Of a DNA stretch of 64,000 bases, positions 58,216-64,000 are shown piece after piece. The stretch's first letter is position 1, and the number at the start of each line of letters is the position of its first letter. This stretch comes from Coriobacteriia bacterium (GTDB taxonomy: Bacteria; Actinomycetota; Coriobacteriia; Anaerosomatales; Anaerosomataceae): the NCBI GenBank assembly GCA_030651765.1, contig JAUSBY010000005.1, positions 62,001 to 126,000 on the forward strand, in the 5' to 3' direction. A program made the position numbers and the translations under genes. The notes under the pieces are model-generated. The model made no database searches, had not been told where the DNA came from, and saw only the letters and a list, made by a program, of their open reading frames with translations.

Positions 58216-59463
58216 CTAGCCGATGGCCGCCTTGAGCGCGTCGATCTTGTCGAGCCGCTCCCAGGTGAAGTCGCGGTCGTCGCGACCGAAGTGACCGTAT
58301 GCCGCGGTCTTGCGGTAGATCGGGCGGCGCAGATCGAGATCGCGGATGATCGCGCCGGGCCGGAGGTCGAAGACCTCGCGAACGGCAGCTTCGATCTTCT
58401 CGCGGGGGACGGTCTCGGTGCCGAAGGTCTCGACGAGGATGGAGAGCGGGTGCGCCACGCCGATGGCGTACGCAAGCTCGATCTCACAGCGCCCGGCAAG
58501 GCCGGCAGCCACGACGTTCTTGGCGACCCATCGCGCCGCGTACGCGGCCGAGCGGTCGACCTTCGTGCAGTCTTTGCCCGAGAACGCACCGCCGCCGTGG
58601 CGGCCCATTCCGCCGTACGTGTCGACGATGATCTTCCGGCCGGTCAGGCCGGTGTCTCCCATCGGGCCGCCGATGACGAAACGCCCGGTCGGGTTGACGT
58701 AGATCTTCGCGCCTTCCCACTCGATGTCCTCGAGCGAGAGCACCGGCTCGATGATGTGCTCGATGAAGTCGGGCTTCATGAGCGCGTCGATGTCGACACC
58801 GTCGGCGTGCTGCGACGAGATGAGGATCGTGTCCACGGCCACCGGCTTGCCATCGACATAGCGCACAGTCACCTGCGTCTTGCCATCGGGGCGGAGGTAG
58901 TCCAAGACGCCCGCCTTGCGGACGGCAGTGAGGCGCTCAGAAAGGCGATGCGCGAGGTAGATCGGCATCGGCATGAGCTGCGATGTTTCGTTGCACGCAT
59001 AGCCGAACATCATGCCCTGGTCACCGGCGCCGATGAGATCGAGGGGGTCCGAGTCGCCGTGCTTGACCTCGTACGCCTCGTCCACGCCCATAGCGATGTC
59101 GGTGCTCTGCTCGTCGATGGCCGTGATCACGCCGCAGGTCTCATAATCGAACCCATACTTGGCGCGCGTGTAGCCGATGTCGCAGACTGTCTCGCGTACG
59201 ATCGCGGGAATGTCCACGTACGCGTGTGTCCGAACCTCTCCGGCCACCACGATGAGTCCGGTGGTGACGAGTGTCTCGCACGCAACGCGCACGTAGTCCG
59301 CTGACGCCGTCGAACCCTTGTCGGTCACGTATCCTTCCGCTGCAAGCTCGGCCTCTCGCGCGATTATCGCGTCGAGAACCGCATCCGAGATCTGGTCGCA
59401 CATCTTGTCGGGGTGGCCTTCCGTGACCGACTCCGAGGTGAACAGGTACTCTCTCTCCGACAT
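58216..59463 (-). CDS. metK: S-adenosylmethionine synthetase MetK
   Basis: Makes SAM from methionine and ATP. The 415 residues show [21 protein letters not shown] in part, [16 protein letters not shown], the [19 protein letters not shown] loop and the C-terminal [14 protein letters not shown]. The start has AGAAGGAGG upstream. It is regulated by a SAM riboswitch and intrinsic terminator in a leader of about 255 bases. The promoter is divergent from the psiE-like gene. Confidence 0.98.
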
Positions 59464-59522
59464 CGAGCCTCCTTCTGGCTCCGTGCCCGCGCGACCGCGG
59501 GCGCTCCACTGGTCGTGCCGGA

Positions 59523-59557
59523 CAAAGAAGAATCCCCTGTCCGGGCAGACAAGGGAT
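59523..59557 (-). terminator. Riboswitch-controlled intrinsic terminator before metK
   Basis: On the minus strand ATCCCTTGTC pairs with GACAGGGGAT (10 positions, one G-U) around a 6-base loop, followed by TCTTCTTTG. It lies 32 bases after the SAM riboswitch and 60 bases before metK, a typical expression platform. Confidence 0.8.
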
Positions 59558-59588
59558 ACAGACGGTGGCACACGTGTGCCGCGCTCTT

Positions 59589-59719
59589 CCCTCATCTTTC
59601 AGACGTCGCCGTCTGCCGCAATGTGGCACCGTACGCCGTTTTCGCGCCGGTTGCCGGGGTGTCGTCGGGTGCGGTCCCTCGACCCTCTGCAGCGCTCTCG
59701 CGCTGCCTCGTGATGAGAA
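59589..59719 (-). promoter_or_regulatory. SAM-I (S-box) riboswitch upstream of metK, with an extra hairpin
   Basis: A 131-base element on the minus strand. P1 is closed by CTCATC/GATGAG. The conserved GAGGGA kink-turn region, CCCGGCAACC and GGTGCCA-type core, and a P4 hairpin CAGACG-GCGA-CGTCTG followed by AAAGATGAG are all present. An additional 7-bp hairpin with a GAGA loop (59689-59706) sits between P1 and P2 where S-boxes usually have only a short purine joint. High SAM should favour the downstream terminator. Confidence 0.92.
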
Positions 59720-59727
59720 CGTCTGTG

Positions 59728-59756
59728 ACGATAGCACGCACCGTGCCGACTGCCAA
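59728..59756 (-). promoter_or_regulatory. Promoter of metK
   Basis: TTGGCA, 17-base spacer ending TGC, TATCGT on the minus strand; TG-extended. Transcription would start just before the SAM riboswitch. The -35 box overlaps the -35 of the opposite psiE promoter. Confidence 0.75.
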
Positions 59757-59778
59757 GCGAGGCGCGAGCCGCTATAGT
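59750..59778 (+). promoter_or_regulatory. Promoter of the PsiE-like gene
   Basis: CTGCCA, 17-base spacer, TATAGT on the plus strand. The -10 box covers a GTG at 59777, which therefore cannot be the start codon; this decides the start at 59810. Confidence 0.6.
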
Positions 59779-59809
59779 GGACGAATCCATCGACACCCTG
59801 GAGTCCTCT

Positions 59810-60226
59810 GTGAAGTACATGAACCTGCTCAACCGCGTGGTGCTCTACATAGAAGGAGCGGTCACCGTGCTGCTGGTGATTCTTGCCGCACTCGGCGTGG
59901 TCGACATCGTCCTGAAGATGCTCGAGGTCACCCGCGCCGACGGTTTCATGACACCCGAGGGCATCACAAGGACGATCGACACCGTCCTTGTGGTCTTCAT
60001 CGTCATCGAGCTCATCCGCATCGCGGTGTCGTACATGCAGCACAAGAACGTCATCGGCACGGTGCTCGAAGCCGGCCTTGTCGCGGTCGTTCGGAAGCTC
60101 GTCATCTTTGAGAGTGGCGAGGGTATGCTCGAGAAGGCGATCGCGCTCGCCATCCTGATCCTTGCGGTCGGCGTGACGTGGTACCTGCTGCAGCGGGGTA
60201 AGCTCTGCTCTGACGACCCACGCTAG
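59810..60226 (+). CDS. PsiE-family small membrane protein
   Basis: A 138-residue protein with four hydrophobic segments (about 9-34, 55-77, 83-100 and 112-132), resembling phosphate-starvation-inducible PsiE. Characteristic pieces are LEVTRADGFMTPEGI and HKNVIGTVLEAGLVAVVRKLVIFE. Function of the family is not well known. The GTG start has GGAG six bases upstream. It is divergent from metK and 32 bases before gltX, so it may be co-transcribed with gltX. Confidence 0.85.
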   Translation: MKYMNLLNRVVLYIEGAVTVLLVILAALGVVDIVLKMLEVTRADGFMTPEGITRTIDTVLVVFIVIELIRIAVSYMQHKNVIGTVLEAGLVAVVRKLVIFESGEGMLEKAIALAILILAVGVTWYLLQRGKLCSDDPR

Positions 60227-63809: not shown

Positions 63810-64000
63810 GGGAGCGGGCCGGGCGGCCGCGCGGGTCTCTTGTTAGACCCGTGAGGAAAGTCCGGACTCCACAGGGCAGGGTGCCTGCTAACGGCAGGGC
63901 GGCGCGAGCCGACGGAAAGTGCCACAGAAAAGAAGACTCCGGATCTACGGGTCCGGAAAAGCTGAAACGGTGCGGTAAGAGCGCACCAGCGTCACGGTGA
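63810..64000 (+). ncRNA. rnpB: RNase P RNA (rnpB), 5' part, cut by window end
   Basis: Catalytic RNA that matures tRNA 5' ends. The conserved P4 sequence GAGGAAAGTCCGGACTCC is followed by CACAGGGCAGGGTGCCTGCTAAC in sequence order (in part), CGCGAGCCGACGGAAAGTGCCACAGAAA, and AACGGTGCGGTAAGAGCGCACC. These match the order of the 5' half of a type A bacterial RNase P RNA. The 3' half with the second P4 strand lies beyond the window. Confidence 0.93.

Follow-up and report, generated by a model that had tools for sequence, protein, structure and literature searches.

SAM-I is among the best studied of the riboswitches, and its core had seemed settled. A metK leader in a 64,000-nucleotide stretch of a Coriobacteriia genome of the order Anaerosomatales (the window, by which we mean the whole stretch of DNA analyzed) raises the question of what an additional helix is doing inside such a core: whether it is a conserved part of the RNA, where exactly it is inserted, how widely it is distributed, and what it might contribute to the switch. 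An earlier note had described a perfect 7-bp hairpin with a GAGA loop at 59689-59706, and the minus strand indeed reads GCAGCGC-GAGA-GCGCTGC from 59706 to 59689. The MFE and centroid folds of the leader each contain the hairpin, and in isolation it folds at -13.5 kcal/mol. The accompanying remark that all core motifs remain is borne out as well, as P1 through P4, the GA/GA of the kink-turn (its positions assigned by analogy with the available text of PMC5061560), the pseudoknot, and GCAACC...GGUGC are all found (Table 1). The placement proposed for the helix survives in part: it does lie 5' of the kink-turn, but it is not a lengthened joint between P1 and P2, being instead inserted in P2a after G13.

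The surroundings of the aptamer fit a transcriptional switch ahead of metK. Two promoter-like sites, one per strand, occur in 59400-59850, against a mean of 0.0 in shuffled sequences, and a -10-like motif is seen 5' of P1 in 104 of 105 loci of the class by a loose pattern applied without a control. The P1 3' strand GAUGAGGG can form 8 pairs, two of them G-U, with CCCUUGUC (59555-59548) in the terminator's 5' arm; pairing between these two strands is the usual S-box antiterminator. SAM binding would thus close P1, free the 5' arm of the terminator and stop transcription, and without SAM the P1 3' strand would pair with that arm and metK would be transcribed. It is from the sequence and from known S-box switches together that we infer this SAM-off logic. 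Across the class, a terminator-like stem follows the aptamer in 93 of 105 loci and at least 5 bases complementary to the P1 region are seen in 74 of 105, both being counts without a shuffled control in which the end of P1 was set too early at some loci. In all but one of the 29 loci with enough sequence (28 of 29), the metK signature GHPDK appears 133-196 nt past the P1 3' side, these distances being taken from a starting point that is placed somewhat early in some of them. Divergently oriented upstream of metK is an ORF for a 149-aa protein (59777-60226, plus strand) that is weakly PsiE-like (38.7 bits, cut-off 138) and whose start is separated by some 20 bases from the -35-like element of metK. 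Elsewhere in the window, a class A RNase P RNA (63811-64000, plus strand) is interrupted by the window end; ahead of it lie two tRNA genes and an ORF that, judged by eye from its sequence, resembles glutaminyl-tRNA synthetase.

Table 1. Features of the metK leader and gene in the window
Feature	Position	Strand	Evidence or remark
metK, methionine adenosyltransferase	58216..59463	-	TIGR01034, 562.5 bits (cut-off 309.4)
Shine-Dalgarno-like AGAAGGAGG, ahead of the metK AUG		-	read from sequence
Promoter-like TTGGCA, 17 nt, TATCGT, with TG preceding the -10	59728..59756	-	
Predicted SAM-I aptamer	59717-59591	-	RF00162 match
P1 5' strand CUCAUC	59712..59717	-	P1: 99.6% of cells paired, 45 sequences
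J1/2 ACGA	59708..59711	-	G59709 and A59708 are the counterparts of SAM-site G11 and A12
G13 equivalent	59707	-	proposed first P2a base pair, with C59656
Extra hairpin, 7 bp, GAGA loop, in the base of P2a	59689..59706	-	
Linker AGA, 3 nt, hairpin to P2a	59686..59688	-	
P2a 5' strand GGGU	59682..59685	-	partner 59657-59660; P2a: 99.4% of cells paired
P2a 3' strand ACCC, then C59656	59657..59660	-	
Kink-turn and P2b-L2, CGA GGG A CCGCA CCC GAC GAC	59661..59681	-	
Pseudoknot, L2 strand CCGCA	59670..59674	-	
Pseudoknot, J3/4 strand UGCGG	59616..59620	-	
P3 with GGCAACC...GGUGCC core	59625..59655	-	
P4	59600..59615	-	96.6% of cells paired
P1 3' strand GAUGAG plus GG	59589..59596	-	also the putative antiterminator strand
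Intrinsic-terminator-like stem, then UCUUCUUUGU	59532..59557	-	1 found, 0.1 expected

The extra hairpin is a real, conserved helix. A search with the RF00162 model, which does not include this hairpin, in 61 genomes (the window's own and 60 relatives of the same order) matched 55, and in all 55 loci first read from this order the hairpin stands at the same place. From 45 own-order sequences we built a hairpin-containing covariance model (R1); the class genomes matched by it yielded 58 further loci, six of them belonging to the own order, and the hairpin is clear in 57, the remaining one (L105) having a long insert of ambiguous pairing. The resulting 113 canonical class loci (L001 and L004-L115, some identical in sequence) come from the own order and from 9 other family codes, with L105 as the only one from f24. 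An automatic parser succeeded on 106; the other seven (L016, L056, L081, L094, L099, L102, and L105) were judged by eye, and all have an insert at the P2a site, which forms a hairpin in the six besides L105. The insert is therefore present at this site in 113 of 113 canonical loci. In the alignment of 45 relatives, 98.9% of the cells in the hairpin are paired, compared with 81.1% in shuffles, and the covariation score is 0.558, compared with 0.197, with none of 500 shuffles as high in either measure; five of the six hairpin pairs changed on both sides, a number reached by 3 of 500 shuffles. With all pairs taken together, including the pseudoknot, 98.4% of cells in the 45 rows are paired, and any slid version stays at or below 45.5%. 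A count independent of structural alignment, which used anchors only and took the five outermost pairs at a fixed 3-nt linker, gave 81 of 90 paired over 18 distinct arm pairs within the own order (59 parsed sequences; shuffled mean 67.4, maximum 75) and 130 of 145 over 29 distinct arm pairs outside it (47 parsed sequences; shuffled mean 98.0, maximum 110). The check on relatives that the earlier note had called for thus shows the pairing of the extra stem kept through compensatory changes both inside and outside the order.

The same loci fix the position of the insert. G11 and A12 are conserved J1/2 nucleotides that contact SAM, according to the accessible part of PMC3764141. The GAG that holds them stands 5' of the hairpin in all 106 parsed loci, the G13 equivalent is G in all 106, and the nucleotide preceding GGCAACC, its would-be partner, is C in all 106; because both bases are invariant, this pair is proposed rather than backed by covariation. 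The outermost pair of the hairpin is likewise G-C in every parsed locus. On its 3' side, the hairpin is followed by a linker of 3 nt in 98 of the 106, 4 nt in seven, and 2 nt in one, with the length at each locus taken as the value that yields the longest stem. Its first base is A in 94 of 106, and the remaining bases are variable (AGA in 46 loci, AUA in 20, AGC in seven, AAA and ACA in six each, others fewer). Because GAG is invariant on the 5' side and the bases on the 3' side vary, we place the helix as an insertion in P2a after its first nucleotide (G13 in Thermoanaerobacter tengcongensis numbering). A placement between P1 and J1/2 was rejected: the linker would then need to supply G11 and A12, yet it varies, being AAAA or UUAA in some class loci. 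In the standard SAM-I of Streptomyces, Frankiales, and other groups, among the matches listed, GAG leads directly into P2a. Beyond its root, the arm is freely variable. The insert measures 17 to 68 nt; the contiguous stem is 4-10 bp in 104 of the 106 parsed loci and 5-8 bp in 93; and the loop is GNRA in 36. The two exceptions in stem length (L089 and L090) have a mismatch near the root of the hairpin, which leaves the parser with contiguous stems of 1 and 2 pairs.

Outside Coriobacteriia, the hairpin was absent wherever SAM-I loci were read in our searches. R1 matches 116 of the 396 class genomes searched, with scores of 102.8-155.7 bits for own-order members (including the 45 used to build it) and 62.7-131.7 bits for the matched rest of the class. 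In a search of the phylum, six matching class members score at least 105 bits and all other Actinomycetota at most 64.6, and the hairpin is absent in all 24 SAM-I loci fetched from the latter. At E values of up to 1e-12, the best R1 scores in two further phyla were 67.3 bits (299 genomes, the phylum of a Brevibacillus) and 70.2 bits (251 genomes, the phylum of a Chloroflexi genome), and the hairpin is absent in the 11 loci read of their 19 matches. Scanning named genomes with a pattern that allows an insert matched at least 118 stretches, which were binned automatically, with corrections made by reading. Among the matches listed, 22 have the insert, about 91 are standard SAM-I elements without the hairpin that owe the match to a chance upstream AAGAG, and five (L142, L148, L181, L193, and L205) are not riboswitches. 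All 22 with the insert, including those from Anaerosomatales and Olsenella, are placed in Coriobacteriia, a probable placement in the case of L188, L203, L209, and L233 (Olsenella porci belongs to the Atopobiaceae of this class); one Anaerosomatales record, L153, matches at the same contig place as a genome of the window's order, G052. Three pattern matches in viral contigs are all of one standard type. The suggestion that the element is a SAM-I variant of this lineage is in keeping with these results, the hairpin-bearing form having been found only in Coriobacteriia in the searches made. We call it a clade-specific SAM-I variant on this distribution; the sampling is partial, and hairpins may occur at this site elsewhere.

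Not every SAM-I element of the class has the hairpin. An RF00162 control on 246 class genomes matched 128 and uncovered a second type in family codes f19 and f22 and in one f24 genome, which R1 did not find in the 396 class genomes. The 33 compact loci of this type (L264-L296, read from 30 genomes; another 12 genomes of f19 and f22 gave matches 91-93 nt long) have neither P4 nor the hairpin, and 26 of the 33 score above the RF00162 cut-off. In them CCAACC/GGUGG replaces GCAACC/GGUGC, which amounts to an inverted G43-C59 pair, and most have a Shine-Dalgarno sequence at the P1 3' strand, followed within a few bases by the start codon. These loci overturned the statement that the class has no SAM-I element without the hairpin; since they lack it, the hairpin is a trait of the canonical metK switch with P4 and not of every SAM-I in the class. 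At five loci (L311, L312, L314, L315, and L316), the gene behind a compact switch encodes a small protein (about 144-221 aa) that has no Pfam match above the cut-off and shares a pattern seen by eye (LGHQMRYSVE and HVLQL, for example). This protein is possibly an unnamed family under SAM control.

What, then, might the arm do? The hairpin would leave the 5' strand directly after G13, without a spacer, and return through the 3-nt A-rich linker, so that the first pair of P2a, the rest of P2a, and the hairpin would form a three-way junction situated directly above the SAM-contacting J1/2. Under the three-way-junction scheme reported by Lescoute and Westhof, a linker 3' of the hairpin and none 5' of it would point to an arm that leans along P2a. 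The constant site and closing pair and the near-constant linker length, set against a free tip, indicate that the root is the part that matters. Our preferred reading is that of a permanent side arm that would act through its root and not its tip, bracing the boundary of J1/2 and P2a and tuning folding or affinity; we hold it with evenly balanced confidence. In a stronger form of this reading, the leader would be a clade-defining SAM-I subclass whose inserted helix, with its near-constant A-rich linker, converts the J1/2-P2a boundary of the four-way junction into an additional three-way junction and so governs how the metK switch of the class folds or responds to SAM; to this we give a shade less than even weight. 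The hairpin's presence, pairing, and site, and its restriction to the lineage in the searches made, are observed; the geometry of the junction and any effect on SAM binding are deduced. The side arm is favored by the covariation in two separate sets, the fixed site, and the presence of the insert in 113 of 113 loci, and the 33 compact loci, SAM-I elements from other families of the class that lack the hairpin, are evidence against it.

The rival that survives best, and one we regard as a tentative but serious possibility, is that of an inert, tolerated insertion, which would have arisen once in an ancestor, must pair with itself to leave the aptamer undisturbed, was never cleanly deleted, and has no role of its own. 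Folding in silico bears on both readings. When the hairpin and linker are deleted from 45 sequences (secondary structure only, without the pseudoknot), the pairing of the other helices is essentially unchanged (P1 0.94 to 0.95, P2a 0.62 to 0.69, P2b 0.85 to 0.87, P3 0.87 to 0.88, P4 0.84 to 0.89), and when the letters of the insert are shuffled, P2a falls to 0.25 and P2b to 0.56. The harmless deletion gives no sign of a need for the hairpin at the level of secondary structure and led us to reject a role as a folding insulator; the harm done by an unpaired insert means that the pairing could persist only because an open GC-rich insert misfolds. These results fit an inert insert equally well. 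In its favor are also the wide variation of loops and stem lengths and, from the available portion of PMC2258182, the tolerance of riboswitches for stem-loop "variable insertions." Such an insert is, however, harder to reconcile with its never being absent from the 113 canonical loci even though its length changes freely, or with contiguous stems of 4 bp or more in 104 of the 106 parsed loci, a near-constant linker length, and a constant closing pair. The idea that the hairpin compensates for a weak kink-turn found no clear sign in the 3b.3n position. Among 106 class loci, A.G is seen here in 13 and C.C in 48, the numbers among 113 loci outside the class being 58 and 17, and by the folding rules in the accessible text of PMC5061560 the combinations not predicted to fold number 34 of 106 against 22 of 113 (with U.G counted as foldable), a weak difference in raw counts that ignore kinship.

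The other roles for the arm fare far worse. The earlier note had considered a tertiary docking element, in which a GNRA-type loop would dock into a receptor helix of the aptamer, and GAGA, GCAA, GUAA, GCGA, and GGAA loops do recur in the window's own family; but about a third of the parsed loops are GNRA, and stems of 4-10 bp would place the loop at very different distances. Tetraloop docking in the usual sense is thus rejected as a general role, and we consider it improbable for the arm. Slightly less probable still is that the hairpin binds a protein or a small RNA or takes part in antitermination: it is close behind the predicted promoter and widespread in the lineage, but its loop has no sequence conserved to the eye, and the antiterminator that can be read in the window is formed by the 3' strand of P1, not by the hairpin.

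The helix does not seem to have been noticed before in the sources covered. In the available part of PMC7657543, which re-analyzed the RF00162 seed alignment and describes an A-U pair, extensions of helices, and a pseudoknot, there is no mention of it, and none of the passages covered on SAM riboswitches, metK in Actinobacteria, and three-way junctions describes it, a body that takes in few subscription papers and no figures. Many members of one bacterial class have an extra helix beside the ligand pocket that is missing from the public family model, and so many of their metK leaders score below the annotation cut-off. The window leader itself scores 41.1 bits with RF00162 (cut-off 44.4), and only 13 of the 61 own-order genomes exceed this threshold though 55 match, the gathering cut-off being a rule of annotation and not of biology. 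In the window, RF00162 aligns P1 with the hairpin's 3' arm; in the alignments of relatives that were inspected it does the same or takes part of the hairpin as P2b. The extra helix also provides a natural experiment on the tuning of a known aptamer by helices at its periphery.

Comparison with known systems places the element with SAM-I. The comparison of family models that the earlier note had proposed returned RF00162 as the best fit at the locus, and the two findings that could have undone the claim of novelty did not materialize, since relatives keep the pairing and the RF00162 consensus is without such a helix. That the leader belongs to SAM-IV (RF00634) or SAM-I/IV (RF01725), whose architecture would explain the helix, is barely credible and was rejected: they are of the same clan, and the 5-bp pseudoknot resembles PK-1 of SAM-IV (PMC6890682, in its accessible text), but in its own genome RF00634 has no match at the locus and RF01725 reaches 17.7 bits against a cut-off of 41.1, and the window type has both P4 and the P2 internal loop. 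By the same text, SAM-IV shares the SAM core and a 5-nt pseudoknot strand and differs in lacking P4 and in having P5 with PK-2. SAM-I/IV shares the SAM core and P4, and from the available parts of PMC6890682 and PMC2864571 it has no P2 internal loop and no PK-1, unlike the window type with its kink-turn internal loop and 5-bp pseudoknot. The k-junction of TPP riboswitches, as presented in the accessible portion of PMC5061560, similarly has a third helix near a kink-turn that makes a three-way junction; there, however, the helix is fused opposite the kink-turn bulge, whereas here the four base pairs of P2a separate it from the kink-turn, and so the element is not a k-junction in that sense.

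With SAM-I, the window type has in common P1-P4, the kink-turn, the L2-J3/4 pseudoknot, the GCAACC/GGUGC core, G11 and A12 in J1/2, the position in a metK leader, and the terminator platform. The SAM-I helices P1, P2, P3, and P4 are paired in 91.7-100% of cells (45 rows); 104 of 106 class loci have both a P1 in which 5 or all 6 pairs form and a P4 of 4 bp or more, with positions chosen to fit; and the kink-turn GA stands opposite G at 2n in 96 of 106 and opposite U at 2n in 10. The pseudoknot of 5 bp, listed as a difference from RF00162, is found in 45 of 45 aligned rows, with three of its five pairs covarying, and in all 102 class loci where it parsed (four of the 106 did not parse); in the outside standard set, L2 is 4 nt long in 87 loci and 5 nt in 27, and a 5-nt L2 is therefore not unique to the class. 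The other difference from the RF00162 consensus is the extra helix itself, with its 3-nt linker, inside P2a. The SAM-I family being known, we file this helix as a variant of SAM-I and not as a new class.
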